From CBDUXZ01 sp965371325 [NCBI: uncultured bacterium] (lineage in GTDB: Bacteria; JAUYMQ01): 7,876 nucleotides of DNA. Both the position numbers and the translations under genes were made by a program. Under the pieces are notes generated by a model. It made no database searches and was not told where the DNA came from. It saw only the letters and a list, made by a program, of their open reading frames with translations. Of the stretch, positions 2,848 to 7,686 are shown in pieces. The stretch spans positions 1 to 7,876 of the forward strand of contig CBDUXZ010000076.1 in NCBI GenBank assembly GCA_965371325.1. Direction: 5' to 3'. Each line of letters begins with the position of its first letter. Position 1 is the stretch's first letter.

Positions 2848-3759
2848 CTAACGGGCTTTCCAGAGACCGTTCGCGGCGGAAATCGCCTCTTTTCCTTCCA
2901 GTCTTTTCAGATGTTTTTCGATCATGATTCGCTCGATCATCCGGTACATCTCCGCGGGCTCGGGGTAGCGCCGGTAGACGAGGTGCGCGTCCACGATCTC
3001 GTCGAGGGTGTGCGGCCGGTCGGCGACCAACTTCAAAATGGCGTCGTCGCGCTCGTGAATTTTCGATTCGTAACGGTCGAGCGCCTCCATCATGTCACTC
3101 CCCTCGAACACCCCCTTTCCGTGGGATGTAATGAGGGTTCTCGGCTTCATATCGCGCACTTTCCGGATCGAAGCGACGAACTGATCAATCGATGAGAAAT
3201 AATCGCCGTAGAATGGCCCGAAGCTTGTGAGGTCGATGTCGGCGATAAAAAAGGAATCTTCATCCTCGAACCAGATGCCCGCGTGGCCCGGCGTGTGGCC
3301 CGGAAGATACACGAGGCGCATGCGCACCCCGTCGATCTCCAGCACCTCGCCGTCCTGCACCTCCCGGTGCACGGGGCTCTCCCGGTAGCCCCAGACCTCC
3401 GTCATCAGCCGCCGCCAGCTCTCTTCCATCGGCGTGCCCGCGACGCCGTTCGCCTCAGCAAACGCGGTTAGGGATCGGATGTAAGGCGCATCCTCGGCGG
3501 GCGCGGCCACCTGCGCGTTCGCGAAGTGGTGATTTCCGCCCTCGTGATCTTCATGGCAGTGTGAGTTGATCACCCAGGCGATTTTCGCCCCGTCAAGCTC
3601 GTAACGGGACGGATCGAAAGTCATTCCGGGATCGATGACGACGGGCTCGCGCCCGTGTACGTAAAGCGTGTGGGAATAGGGGTAGCGCCCGCCGTCGGGG
3701 CCCGGGAGGACCTCGACGCGGCCGAAGCGGACGCGCTCCGAGAGGCCGCGCGTCTTCAC
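2848..3759 (-). CDS. Metallo-beta-lactamase-fold hydrolase with C-terminal helical (winged-helix-like) region
   Basis: The 303-residue protein starts at GTG 3759-3757, whose bases overlap the acs stop as GTGA, so translation is probably coupled to acs. The MBL metal-binding set is visible: [11 protein letters not shown] with His67, His69, Asp71 and His72, then [10 protein letters not shown] (His155, His159), then Asp174 in FIADIDLT where a GD is more usual, and SHGKG with His213. Both zinc sites therefore look complete. Residues about 230-295 are charged and helical ([20 protein letters not shown] and an [15 protein letters not shown] tail), like the winged-helix tail of LACTB2-type members. 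The fold covers thioesterases, glyoxalase II, lactonases and nucleases; no nuclease-type beta-CASP domain is present. Coupling to acetyl-CoA synthetase favours a thioester or ester substrate, but this is inference. No signal peptide is seen. Confidence 0.88.
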
Positions 3760-5726
3760 GATTCTTCATCTTCGCGGAGCCGGGTGAGCACCGAGTAGTC
3801 CTCGAGCGTCGTGGTGTCGCCCACGGTGCTGCTTCCCGATGCGATCTCGCGCAGAAGACGCCGCATGATCTTTCCGGAACGGGTTTTTGGAAGGGAGTCG
3901 GTGAAGCGAATTTCGTCGGGCTTGGCGATGGGACCAATTTCCTTCGCAACGTGGTTGCGGAGCACTTCCTTCAACCGGGGGGACGGCTTGCTCCCGCCTT
4001 CGAGTGTCACAAAAGCCGAAATGGCCGTTCCCTTCATGTCGTCCGGCTTTCCAACCACGGCGGCCTCGGTCACGCTCGGGTGGCTGACCAGTGCGCTTTC
4101 GACCTCCATCGTGGAGAGCCTGTGGCCGGCGACGTTCATAACGTCGTCGATGCGCCCCATGACCCAGAAGTAACCATCCTTGTCGCGACGCGCCCCGTCG
4201 CCGGCGAAATAGAAGCCTGGGATATCGCTCCAGTACTGCTTCTTGTAACGGGCGTCGTCGCCGTAAATTGTGCGAAGCATTCCCGGCCAGGGACGCCTTA
4301 GCACGAGATATCCGCCCGCGTTCGGGGGAACGGATTTTCCGTCCTTCGAAACAACGTCGACATCGATACCGGGGAAGGGGAGGGTGCAGGAGCCGGGCTT
4401 CGTCGGCACGGCGCCGGGCAGCGGTGTGATCAGAATGCCGCCGGTTTCCGTCTGCCACCAGGTATCCACGATGGGGCATCGCTTCCCGCCGATGACGCGG
4501 TGGTACCACATCCACGCCTCGGGGTTGATCGGCTCACCCACCGTCCCGAGGAGCCGGAGACTCGACAGATCGTGTTTGTTGGGCCATTCGTCGCCCCACT
4601 TCACGAAGGCGCGGATCGCCGTCGGGGCCGTGTAGAAAATAGTCACGCGGTGGTGCTCAAGGATCTCCCAGAGGCGATCATTCTCGGGGAAGTTCGGCGC
4701 CCCCTCGTACATGACGCTCGTCGCGCCGTTGGCGAGAAGTCCATAGATGACGTAGCTGTGCCCGGTCACCCAGCCAATGTCGGCGGTGCACCAGAAGGTG
4801 TCTTCGTCCTTGAGATCGAATATGAGGCGCGCGGTGTGCGTGACGTGTGTGAGGTAGCCGCCGGTCGTGTGAAGCACGCCCTTGGGCTTCCCCGTGCTGC
4901 CGCTCGTGTAGAGGATGAAGAGCGGGTGCTCGCTGTCGAGCTTCGCGGGTTCGCACTTCGCGGAGGCGTTTTCCATGAGATCATGCCACCAGAAGTCTCG
5001 TCCCCTCCGCATGGCCGTTTTCTCGCCGATTCTTTTCACGACGATAGCGCGCTGAATGGTGGGTGTTCCCTGGAGCGCCTCGTCCGCCATTGTCTTGAGC
5101 GGTACCACGCAGCCGCGCCTCCATCCGCCGTCGGCCGTGATCAGGACCTTTGCCTCGGCATCGTTGATGCGATCGCGGAGCGCGTCGGCGGAGAAGCCGC
5201 CGAACACCACGTTGTGGACGGCGCCGATGCGCGCGCAGGCGAGCATGGCGATGGCAAGCTCCGGAATCATCGGCATGTAGATGGCCACCCGGTCGCCCTT
5301 CCTGACTCCGCTCGTCTTGAGTACGTTTGCGAACTTGCAGACCTCGCGGTGAAGATCGGCATAGGTGAGCGTGCGCCGGTCACCGGGCTCGCCTTCCCAG
5401 ATGATTGCCGCCTTGTTGCGGCGCCACGTCGTGAGGTGCCGGTCAATACAGTTGTGCGAAACGTTGATGCGACCCCCCACAAACCACTTCGCGAAGGGGG
5501 GCTTCCATTGCAGCACCTTCTTCCAGGGCCTGAACCAGTCGAGCTCCTTCGCCGCCTTCGCCCAATAGGCCTGTGGATTGCGCTGCGCCGCCTTCGCGAT
5601 TCGCTTGTGCTCGGCGAGGCTCTTCACATGGGAGCGCTTCGAGAAATCCGGGGGCGGCTTGAATAGACGCGTTTCCTTCAGAGAAGACTCGATCTCGGAC
5701 TTGGTCGAAGCGGGTTTCCTGGCCAT
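3756..5726 (-). CDS. acs: Acetyl-CoA synthetase, AMP-forming
   Basis: At 656 residues this matches the usual Acs length (about 650). It activates acetate with ATP to acetyl-adenylate and then acetyl-CoA in the cytoplasm. The N-terminal ACAS region holds [18 protein letters not shown] (about 81-98). The P-loop is [11 protein letters not shown] (273-283). WWQTETGG (423-430) includes Trp424, equivalent to the Trp that limits the acyl pocket to acetate in characterised Acs proteins. The hinge and C-terminal domain include [13 protein letters not shown] (524-536). Lys619 in [11 protein letters not shown] is the adenylation-step lysine that is acetylated by Pat-type enzymes in Salmonella. ATG 5726 is preceded by GGAGA (5735-5731) with a 4-nt gap. 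It lies 42 bp after the alpha/beta-hydrolase stop and overlaps the MBL start by 4 bp, so it is the middle gene of a three-gene operon. No acetyltransferase or deacetylase gene for Lys619 control is in view. Nothing truncated or odd. Confidence 0.97.
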
Positions 5727-5768: not shown

Positions 5769-6569
5769 TCAGGCGTGGGATCGGATGAAGTGGGTGATGT
5801 GATGGGCGGCGGTGTCTGGCGCCTCGATCCAGAACATGTGGCCGATGCCAGGAAGCAGCGTGAGCTGGGCCTGCGCGATCTTGCCCGCCAGCTCGACGGA
5901 GTTCTCTGGCGGGATGAGTTCGTCCTTGTCGCCGGCGATGATGAACGTGGGAACCTTTATCGCCCCGAGCCGCTCCACCGTGTCATGATCACTCACCGCC
6001 GACATCTGCCCCGCGAAGCCGTCCTTCTTCATGCGGTTCTCGAGGCCATACTGAATAAGATGCTCCACGACCTCGGGGCGCTTCTTCATGAACGCCGGTG
6101 TCAGGTTCACGCTCAGGATGTCCTGCATCGCCCGTTCGGCCCCTTTTCCGGCCAGAATGAATGCGCGTTCGATCACCTCCGGCGGCGGCATGATCTGCCC
6201 CGTCCCGCCGAAATGCGTGCACCCGAGCACGAGTGAGCGAACCCGATCCGGGTGGGAGAGGGCCAGCTCCTGCGCAATCATTCCGCCCATGCTCACCCCA
6301 AAGATGTGCGCGCGCTCGATCGAAAGGGCGTCGAGTAGTCCCGCGGCGTCGTCGGCCAACTGCTTCATGGTGTAAGGGGGGGGCGGCGCCGTCGTCTTTC
6401 CGACACCGCGGTTATCGAAGGCGATGGTCATGAAATCGAGTTTGAGCTTCTTGTCGAAGCCCAGCCAGTGATACTTCGACCCCGTGATCCCCATGATCAT
6501 GAGGAGGGGATCACCCGCTCCCTCCATCTCGCAGGCGATGTCGATGTCGTTTACCTGGATGCTCGGCAC
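5769..6569 (-). CDS. Alpha/beta-fold hydrolase, 3-oxoadipate enol-lactonase-like
   Basis: I choose GTG 6569-6567, giving 266 residues (MPSIQVNDIDIACEM...), because GGGAG (6582-6578) sits 8 nt upstream and the family normally begins at this strand. A longer in-frame reading to ATG 6680 would add 37 residues encoded by the inverted repeat and promoter region and is rejected. Visible features: the oxyanion region LLMIMGITGSKYHW (about 22-35); DNRGVGKT; a tetraproline at 62-65; the nucleophile elbow GVSMGG with Ser93; the acid Asp216 in AGDKDELIPP; and the base His244 in GIGHMFWIEAP. A cap of helices lies between the elbow and the acid. The set is a complete Ser-Asp-His triad. Such enzymes hydrolyse esters, lactones or C-C bonds of small molecules. 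Substrate unknown. It leads the operon with acs and the MBL hydrolase, so it might release a carboxylic acid that Acs then activates; this is inference. Confidence 0.9.
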   Translation of the reverse strand: MPSIQVNDIDIACEMEGAGDPLLMIMGITGSKYHWLGFDKKLKLDFMTIAFDNRGVGKTTAPPPPYTMKQLADDAAGLLDALSIERAHIFGVSMGGMIAQELALSHPDRVRSLVLGCTHFGGTGQIMPPPEVIERAFILAGKGAERAMQDILSVNLTPAFMKKRPEVVEHLIQYGLENRMKKDGFAGQMSAVSDHDTVERLGAIKVPTFIIAGDKDELIPPENSVELAGKIAQAQLTLLPGIGHMFWIEAPDTAAHHITHFIRSHA

Positions 6570-6577
6570 GGTGTTGT

Positions 6578-6582
6578 CTCCC
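6578..6582 (-). promoter_or_regulatory. Ribosome binding site GGGAG for the alpha/beta-hydrolase
   Basis: GGGAG on the minus strand stands 8 nt before GTG 6569-6567. It sets the start of the hydrolase at 266 residues rather than the 303-residue reading that runs into the upstream inverted repeat. Confidence 0.7.
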
Positions 6583-6611: not shown

Positions 6612-6640
6612 TTTATACCATGAAAGCTTGTCCGTGTGAA
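6612..6640 (-). promoter_or_regulatory. Putative sigma-70-type promoter for the hydrolase-acs-MBL operon
   Basis: On the minus strand TTCACA (6640-6635) stands exactly 17 bp from TATAAA (6617-6612); each hexamer matches the consensus at 5 of 6 positions. The start of transcription would fall near 6605, giving a leader of about 36 nt with the GGGAG site. The -35 box lies inside the left arm of the inverted repeat and shares its first two Ts with the T-run of the preceding hairpin. It is in an AT-rich patch between an operon and the previous gene, as expected. Predicted by eye only. Confidence 0.6.
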
Positions 6641-6726
6641 AAAAGGGGACGCTCCCCTTTATCAAAACCTTGTCGAGCAACGCGGCGGCTTGGCGATAAA
6701 GGGGAGCGTCCCCTCTTTTTCACGGA
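6631..6726. repeat. 96-bp inverted-repeat element (REP/MITE-like) with two hairpin arms
   Basis: The left arm (6631-6663) and the reverse complement of the right arm (6695-6726) agree almost throughout. Both start TCCGTG and end GGGGACGCTCCCCTTTATC; the differences are an indel of one base and a few changes in the A-run. A 31-nt spacer separates them. Each arm is also a small hairpin: AAAGGGGA, a 3-nt loop (CGC or GCG), then TCCCC and Ts. The outer end is 1 bp from the antiporter stop codon (6727-6729). No clear target-site duplication is seen in the flanks. The arms encode the similar peptides IKGSVPFF and IKGSVPSF on opposite strands, which is a by-product of the palindrome and not a gene. 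No transposase is present in the window, so if it is mobile it would need one elsewhere. Confidence 0.85.
6639..6660 (-). terminator. Probable intrinsic terminator after the antiporter gene
   Basis: Read on the minus strand this is AAAGGGGA, loop GCG, TCCCCTTT, then a T-run reaching 6639: a GC-centred 8-bp stem followed by Ts. It lies 67 bp beyond the antiporter stop codon and just before the -35 box of the next operon. The right arm could likewise end plus-strand transcription (stem then TCTTTTT at 6714-6720). Competing pairing of the two arms with each other could give a longer stem instead. Confidence 0.5.
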
Positions 6727-7686
6727 CTAAATCAGCAGGAAGAGATAGACGGCGTAGCCCAGCAAGAGGAGGATCCCCTCGCTCCGCACGATGCGCGATC
6801 CGCGATACATCATCGGCAGAACGGCGAGCGAGAATCCCATCATCCACCACATGTCGCTGGCGATGAGATCGGGGGCAACCGTCGTCGGCTTAACGAGGCT
6901 GACCAGACCGACCGTTCCCAATATGTTGAAAATGTTTGAGCCCATGACATTGGCAACGGCGATCTCAGTCTGCTTGCGCAGGACGGCCACAATCGATGTC
7001 GCGAGCTCTGGCAGGCCGGTGCCCGCCGCAACGATGGTGAGCCCCACCACCCGTTCGCTCATCCCCATCAGGGTGGCGAGATCGACCGCCGCGATCACAA
7101 GAAACCGCGCGCCCAGGGTGAGACCGGCGATCCCCGTGAGCACCAGCCCGGTATTAAGCGCAGCGCTCCTCCATTTCCGCACGGGCGCGGTGAGTGCCTC
7201 GGCCCCGGCCTTCAGATGAACCGCCTCCTGCCCTTTCACCTCCTTGCGTGCGAGGCGAATGCTGTAGATGGTAAAGAGGATCAAGGAGGTCACGAAGAAG
7301 ACCCCCTCGAGTCGATCAACCATGCCGTCGCGGCAAACGATGAGCGCCGCAAAGCTCGAGGCGAACATGAAGGGCCACTCCAGCTTCACCGCGTTCCCGT
7401 GCACCCGGAGCGGCACGAAGAGCGAGGCCAATCCCAGAATGATCGCGAGGTTGAAAATGTTGGAGCCGATCACGTTTCCCATGGCGATATCGGGGCGGTC
7501 GGAAAGACGCGCGAAGGCCGTAACGGCCAGCTCGGGGAGCGAAGTACCCATGGCGACGATGGTGAGGCCGATGACGGCAGGCGTTACCCTGGCGATCTGC
7601 GCGATGGCGGCGGCGCCCCGGACAAGAAACTCGCCCCCTATCGCCAGAAGGAGAAGGCCCACGGCAAGCAGGATGAAGATGGTCAT
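6727..7686 (-). CDS. CaCA-family calcium/sodium antiporter (YrbG-like)
   Basis: The 319-residue membrane protein starts at ATG 7686, with a GGAG about 10 nt upstream. It shows the two inverted alpha-repeats of cation/Ca2+ exchangers. Alpha-1 is VIGLTIVAMGTSLPELA with Glu52, then GNVIGSNIFN with Asn71 and Asn76. Alpha-2 is VVGLTIVAAGTGLPELA with Glu227, then ANVMGSNIFN with Asn246 and Asn251. The two Glu are the central ion-binding acids of the family. About ten hydrophobic segments are seen, five on each side of a charged loop (about 143-175, with RLARKEVKGQE). Length and architecture match bacterial YrbG-type proteins, which are predicted to exchange Ca2+ for Na+ or H+ across the inner membrane. 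No added regulatory domain is present. It lies 40 bp after the stop of the partial gene at the window edge, so the two may be co-transcribed. Ion selectivity is not shown by sequence. Confidence 0.95.
   Translation of the reverse strand: MTIFILLAVGLLLLAIGGEFLVRGAAAIAQIARVTPAVIGLTIVAMGTSLPELAVTAFARLSDRPDIAMGNVIGSNIFNLAIILGLASLFVPLRVHGNAVKLEWPFMFASSFAALIVCRDGMVDRLEGVFFVTSLILFTIYSIRLARKEVKGQEAVHLKAGAEALTAPVRKWRSAALNTGLVLTGIAGLTLGARFLVIAAVDLATLMGMSERVVGLTIVAAGTGLPELATSIVAVLRKQTEIAVANVMGSNIFNILGTVGLVSLVKPTTVAPDLIASDMWWMMGFSLAVLPMMYRGSRIVRSEGILLLLGYAVYLFLLI

Follow-up and report, generated by a model that had tools for sequence, protein, structure and literature searches.

Can one short palindrome both end the transcript of the gene before it and supply a promoter to the genes behind it? 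The question is raised by a locus on contig CBDUXZ010000076.1 of an uncultured bacterium, where a palindrome stands between an antiporter gene and a group of genes that includes acetyl-CoA synthetase (acs). The stretch of DNA analysed here, called the window, is 7,876 bp long. The genes for a Na/Ca-exchanger-family antiporter, an alpha/beta-hydrolase, acetyl-CoA synthetase and a metallo-beta-lactamase-fold protein (MBL) flank the palindrome and all lie on the minus strand (Table 1). The hydrolase start is best placed at the GTG given in the table, because a related locus (L001, described below) starts at the same codon and has GGAG eight bases upstream. Further along the window, at 643-1305 on the plus strand, a 220-aa frame combines a carboxymuconolactone-decarboxylase domain (34-98) with a Rieske domain (122-202), an unusual-looking pairing.

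Table 1. Features of the window at and around the palindromic element, in window coordinates.
Feature	Position	Strand	Basis or remark
Metallo-beta-lactamase-fold protein (MBL)	2848..3759	-	Open reading frame, domain match
Acetyl-CoA synthetase (acs)	3756..5726	-	Open reading frame, domain match
Alpha/beta-hydrolase	5769..6569	-	Start GTG 6569-6567, placed by comparison with L001 GTG 541
Candidate ribosome-binding site GGGAG	6578..6582	-	8 nt before GTG; GGAG at equal spacing in L001
TATAAA, candidate -10 (5/6), outside element, 17 bp from -35	6612..6617	-	Sequence, promoter scan
Palindromic element, paired inverted arms, 31-nt centre between 25-nt core arms	6630..6727		Fold, repeat search; missing in L001
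Left arm GTCCGTG-TG-AAAAAAGGGGACGCTCCCCTTTATC	6630..6663	+	Sequence, repeat search, fold
TTCACA, candidate -35 (5/6), within element	6635..6640	-	Sequence, promoter scan
Left-arm hairpin (6660-6642) and T6 (6644-6639), intrinsic-terminator-like	6639..6660	-	By sequence; absent from simple scanner list
Right arm, inverted copy, without the left arm's TG/AC dinucleotide	6695..6727	-	Sequence, repeat search, fold
Hairpin AGGGGAGCGTCCCCT with CTTTTT tail, terminator-like in other direction	6700..6720	+	Scanner (hairpin 6700-6714)
Na/Ca-exchanger-family antiporter (Na_Ca_ex)	6727..7686	-	Stop TAG 6729-6727, G common to element

The preliminary description of this DNA had reported an inverted repeat of 96 bp beginning 1 bp after the antiporter stop. 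The repeat is confirmed, at a length of 98 bp (6630-6727), and base pairing runs from its first base to its last. The offset is not: the outermost base, C at 6727 (G on the minus strand), is also the last base of the antiporter TAG codon. Folded as minus-strand RNA, the palindrome reaches -65.9 kcal/mol against -28.5 +/- 3.3 for 200 shuffles (z -11.2), and the plus-strand fold gives z -10.5. It is the only inverted repeat with fewer than 300 nt between its arms among the 25 longest of the 59 found in the window, and a separate palindrome finder returned this element alone. Both arms are built of GTCCGTG, an A-rich run and then GGGGACGCTCCCCTTTATC, and the core arms share 96% identity. The outward arm ends differ by 2 bp (left CACACGGAC, right CACGGAC), an asymmetry that may have arisen in either direction, by the left arm gaining AC or the right arm losing it. 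An Rfam search of the window gave no match at the element and three sub-threshold matches elsewhere.

Comparison with a relative indicates how the element may have come to this place. A search for related loci with the hydrolase yielded at least 580 confirmed loci among 590 stretches, of which the best 80 were compared, some of them on contigs too short to show gene order. The only syntenic locus among these 80 is L001, from Deltaproteobacteria bacterium isolate C24_metabat.bin.90 (genome G001), where six genes stand in the same order. Identities are 56% for the antiporter (over the end of the gene only, where the L001 contig begins), 77% for the hydrolase, 84% for Acs, 76% for MBL, 59% for PgeF and 61% for HAD. 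In L001, a gap of 34 bp, free of any palindrome, separates the antiporter stop from the hydrolase GTG; the locus that lacks the element is thus the tighter cluster. A promoter scan of L001 reached at best 5/12 in 481-545 and 7/12 in 371-545, a stretch that includes the antiporter gene end. A relative that lacked the element and kept the same hexamers would speak against promoter donation, as the preliminary description had pointed out; L001, the one relative available for this comparison, has neither. Because syntenic L001 has its short gap without the element, and the order antiporter-hydrolase-acs-MBL is otherwise the same, the element looks acquired at the window site, the direction of change being read from two genomes with no outgroup. 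When 15 genomes were searched with MBL for an outgroup, identity in the best-scoring matches was 34-35%.

Removal of the element leaves 60 nt in the window gap against 34 in L001, and the difference is therefore more than a clean insertion. This disparity in leader length beyond the element, together with the fact that only two taxa are comparable, gives some room to the opposite history, in which L001 lost an ancestral palindrome and promoter and its short gap is derived. Such a loss is nevertheless very unlikely: the L001 junction holds no remnant of either arm, and elsewhere G001 has single, scattered elements of this build, the pattern expected of insertions.

Candidate signals for the end of one transcript and the start of another are packed closely in and beside the left side of the element. 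On the minus strand, the stem AAAGGGGA (6660-6653), a GCG loop and TCCCCTTT (6649-6642) form a hairpin that runs into T6 (6644-6639), and the last two T of this run are the first two letters of TTCACA. The preliminary description had noted this succession of left-arm hairpin, Ts and TTCACA, 17 bp from TATAAA, and the sequence bears it out. A GC-rich stem followed by a T-run is found in both directions, on the minus strand at 6660-6639 (by sequence) and on the plus strand at 6700-6720. In a promoter scan with TTGACA and TATAAT, spacers of 16-18 and at least 4/6 per hexamer, TTCACA-17-TATAAA is the sole match of at least 10/12 on either strand of the 7,876-bp window; lowering the threshold to 9/12 adds three sites on the minus strand and none on the plus strand. 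The predicted start from this candidate promoter is at about 6605, giving about 36 nt of leader. A simple scanner listed no promoter in the window (shuffle mean 1.6), because it requires the final T in the -10, and left the minus-strand hairpin unlisted as well. The extra AC of the left arm matters to the candidate promoter, as the left-end hexamer would read TTCACG at 15 bp spacing without it. The best element-borne -35 match is 10/12 at the left end and 6/12 at the right end.

A match of 10/12 is rare by chance. It occurred in 0.35% of 2,000 first-order Markov gaps composed like the 158-nt gap (one strand) and in 0.15% when they were composed like the window, or in about 1/290 to 1/670 such gaps. 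In 5,000 trials that joined the actual element to random leaders of 60 nt, the element supplied the -35 of a 10/12 match in 0.6% (0.24%). These values bear on the idea that the palindrome is a REP-type post-transcriptional element, which stalls ribosomes at the stop codon or shields the 3' end of the antiporter mRNA, so that the four genes form one transcript with unequal expression and the hexamers are accidental. The palindrome does begin at the antiporter stop codon, gene order and strand are kept, and the gap in L001 fits co-transcription. For REPs less than 16 nt from a stop, lowered translation has been reported (Liang et al. 2015, cited in PMC12306157). Given how seldom so good a promoter match is expected, and that the T-runs favour termination over read-through, it is quite unlikely that the element acts only in this way.

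Related elements occur in the genome of the relative. A sample of 254 kb of G001, non-random in that it consists of 20 contigs touched by earlier searches, contains 13 long palindromes; an equally large random control contains 1. The top-scoring palindrome (C119) consists of GGGGACGTTCACCATTTTC, 33 nt and the inverse arm, which is the build of the window element; it lies one base from the 3' end of tRNA-Leu, and its arm is identical to the window arm at 15/19 positions. A 19-nt arm motif was made from the window and C119, so only other copies count as independent. With up to two mismatches, the motif has 10 matches in G001 and none for a reversed-pattern control. Across 47 genomes, 32 have some match: G001 and G009 have 10 each (control for G009, 1), and the other 45 together have 40 against 27 control matches. 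An exact match in G022 lies inside a reading frame and has no second arm. Seven of the ten matches in G009, on six contigs, are a repeat, GGGGACGCACCTCTTTTTC, of another GGGGAC palindrome family. On G009 contig C238 (L182, 987-1044), two inverted copies of this repeat flank a 7-nt centre, with a T6 tail, shortly after the stop of a putative frame.

Inverted pairs of the motif are present in G001 on C119, C580 and C612, with spacers of 28-33 nt and arms identical to those of the window at 13-15/19 positions; the second arm on C612 has three mismatches to the motif. C107, C110 and C268 carry single arms at or near gene ends. The single arms on C282 and C286 lie inside reading frames and were dropped from the element counts, and C116 and C500 were used for the -35 test only. 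In an alignment of the window element with the three pairs, 13/19 base pairs are unchanged, 5 are changed on both sides, none is changed on one side and in 1 the sole departure is an unpaired cell; pairing holds for 97.4% of cells. None of 500 shuffles had as many both-sided changes, a result for four sequences that were chosen as palindromes. The arms thus change together, as expected of units spreading as palindromes. Likeness of single arms is a weak guide by itself, as four other 19-mers at least 15/19 like the window arm occur in the 254 kb of G001.

The outer tag is a second link to the relative: GTCCGTG with AAAARGGGGAC no more than 8 nt behind it was found in one of 36 genomes and there at one place (controls 0). 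This place is C373 of G001, the nearest relative found, where the tagged element GTCCGTG...AAAAAGGGGAC comes directly after a TGA stop and before nuoB. The 18-mer of the window arm was searched for in 32 genomes (covering 34 of the 80 loci) and gave no match at up to one mismatch. The exact element has no match in plasmids and one irrelevant 25-base match in phages. In IMG/VR, a 21-mer has no match and a 16-mer core has three, none with a second arm; the tag pattern and the arm pattern have one match each, neither with an inverted second arm. Other palindromes were seen in G001 in passing. Four lie within 800 bp at L131 139-918 (C317), some with the common units CAATGACATGCG and TTGCTTCG, and one at L133 5739-5795 (C116) has 20-nt arms, a 9-nt loop and a CGTCCCCTTTTCTT tail, with a window-like edge and an unrelated inner part.

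Bidirectional intrinsic terminators have an A-run, a GC stem and a T-run on both strands, and the window element has the same layout. It could be an ordinary terminator of this type, non-mobile and arisen in place, whose hairpin and U-run end the antiporter mRNA, while the next unit has its own promoter. Hairpins with the same CGTCCCC edge as the window element and a T-rich tail are found in G001 at C500, C116 and C373, of which only C373 was verified beside a stop codon. The C373 element lies between that stop and a 10/12 promoter outside it, before nuoB. In detail, the palindrome there (L122 11725-11820) directly follows a GST stop, and TTGACA-16-TACACT precedes nuoB wholly outside the hairpin. 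However, the 33-bp arms and 31-nt centre of the window element are unusually long and exceed what a terminator needs, paired copies of the same arm design recur in G001 as relatives of mobile type, and L001 has nothing at this place. A plain terminator is therefore an unlikely account, and a palindromic element of mobile type is quite probable.

The behaviour of the family distinguishes what is general from what is particular to the window copy. Among seven intergenic G001 elements (C119, C580, C612, C373, C107, C268 and C110), four touch a recognisable gene end: that of GST (0 nt), of a convergent Mur-ligase/phosphomethylpyrimidine-kinase pair (22-bp gap), of a sulfotransferase and of tRNA-Leu. 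One element lies 12 nt after a weakly supported frame (sub-threshold VIT1 match), and C580 stands 64 nt downstream of a frame that has no Pfam match. The C612 element overlaps a Lactamase_B frame in its upstream part and so is on the 5' side of that gene. Siting at gene ends is common in G001, not universal. A different result was obtained for the -35. An element-borne -35 with a -10 at 16-18 bp scored 4-7/12 at the 18 ends of nine other G001 elements, the right end of C116 having only about 16 nt of contig beyond it. As none of these ends exceeds 7/12, -35 donation across the family was rejected, and the -35 is peculiar to the window copy. The pairs on C119, C580 and C612 have no T6-CAC end; their ends are CCCCATTA or a run poor in T/A and lacking T6, and termination therefore does not characterise the family either. 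From both results, the T-run and the -35 are features of the window copy or its subfamily.

The preliminary description had proposed that the element may have brought the -35 of the acs operon, and had asked for a genome-wide count of the unit after stop codons with a -10 at 17 bp. Attempted in G001, the count shows siting at gene ends to be common, but it returned no end with an element-borne -35 in a match above 7/12, and a -35 carried as a general property of the element is not borne out. The proposal for the window itself survives in part: of the two hexamers, the -35 is part of the palindrome and the -10 is not, and L001 lacks both, but there is no family rule and the case hangs on a 2-bp asymmetry. 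The candidate promoter is a property of the window copy, not of the family.

As to class, the best reading of its build places the window element with paired TIR/REP elements (REPIN-like) of a GGGGAC class. The TIRYT class is described as Y1 transposases with HTH tails and GGGG[AT][CG]A[CG] repeats (PMC3733652; subclass 2.1 of the Y1 family in PMC6006769). The TIR elements of this class resemble the window element in having GGGGAC-type inverted repeats, many as dimers, and HTH-tailed Y1 transposases of the type described are encoded in the genome of the relative. G001 has three Y1_Tnp genes, two with C-terminal HTH domains (one Bac_DnaA_C, one scoring as sigma-70 region 4). The window sequence GGGGACGC fits the GGGGWSAS consensus at 7/8 positions, and no transposase gene flanked by the window repeat was found in G001; one arm of C373, GGGGACAC, fits the consensus fully. 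No arm copy was found beside the G001 Y1 genes, which leaves the identity of the mobilising enzyme to guesswork. One Y1 gene has two other GGGGGAC palindromes at a distance of about 1.3 kb, and the single arm on C110 is on the same contig as that gene, about 10.8 kb away.

REPINs, or REP doublets, are described in PMC3116915 as two inverted hairpin units with a short spacer that form one long hairpin and are extragenic. The window element likewise consists of two inverted hairpin units forming a longer hairpin, but it lacks the GT[AG]G guide tetranucleotide of those elements at its foot. The canonical REP, defined by GT[AG]G at the hairpin foot in PMC6006769, is not matched by the window foot, GTCCGTG(TG)AAAAAA. 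REPs lie predominantly near 3' ends, and their termini can supply a stop codon, according to PMC3733652.

The closest functional parallel is the 'Black promoter' of Correia elements (CREE), for which PMC2649163 describes a -35 within the element, a -10 completed by the landing site, an RNA hairpin, and 18 potential Black promoters in one genome, the element also holding part of the -10. An element-borne -35 with a native -10 is found by sequence in the window copy only, and at 0/18 other ends. Correia elements differ in occurring in other bacteria and in their terminal sequence, CCGGTACGG in the same source, whereas the window element ends in GTCCGTG and is one copy. In the literature searched, which took in few subscription journals and some texts only in part, no report was found of a TIR-pair element donating a -35.

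Taken together, the evidence tips slightly towards an overall reading in which a mobile-type TIR/REP pair landed at the antiporter stop, ends the antiporter mRNA and, with less assurance, created a new promoter for hydrolase-acs-MBL. A miniature non-coding element, an inverted pair of TIR/REP-like hairpins, would have landed exactly at the antiporter stop codon, within a tight co-directional run of antiporter, hydrolase, acs and MBL such as that of L001. In the antiporter mRNA, the hairpin and U-run would then end most transcripts or fix their 3' end. More tentatively, the T-run/CAC end of the arm and the nearby TATAAA may form a new sigma-70-type promoter that drives hydrolase-acs-MBL. It is plausible from the sequence that the window copy acts as both terminator and promoter. 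The predicted effect on the antiporter mRNA, termination or a fixed 3' end, is likely. Activity of the candidate promoter is evenly balanced between yes and no; if it is active, the -35 probably came with the element. The strengths given here to mobile type, termination, promoter activity and the origin of the -35 are judgements and were not computed.

A fuller history can be proposed, although as a whole it is improbable. One landing of a TIR pair would have split the four-gene cluster, its hairpin would have ended the antiporter unit, and a 2-bp gain of AC, changing the spacing from 15 to 17 and TTCACG to TTCACA, would have made the arm the -35 for hydrolase-acs-MBL. If this is true, the split of an operon and the birth of a promoter would both come from the same 98 bp, and the finishing mutation would be readable as the asymmetry of the arms. 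A small hairpin element could then, in a single event, cut a co-transcribed cluster and set its second half going again. Correia elements, and also insertion sequences, already provide examples of this principle. What this locus would add is a pair of loci with and without the element, and unequal arms, whose difference may be the mark of the mutation by which the promoter was completed.
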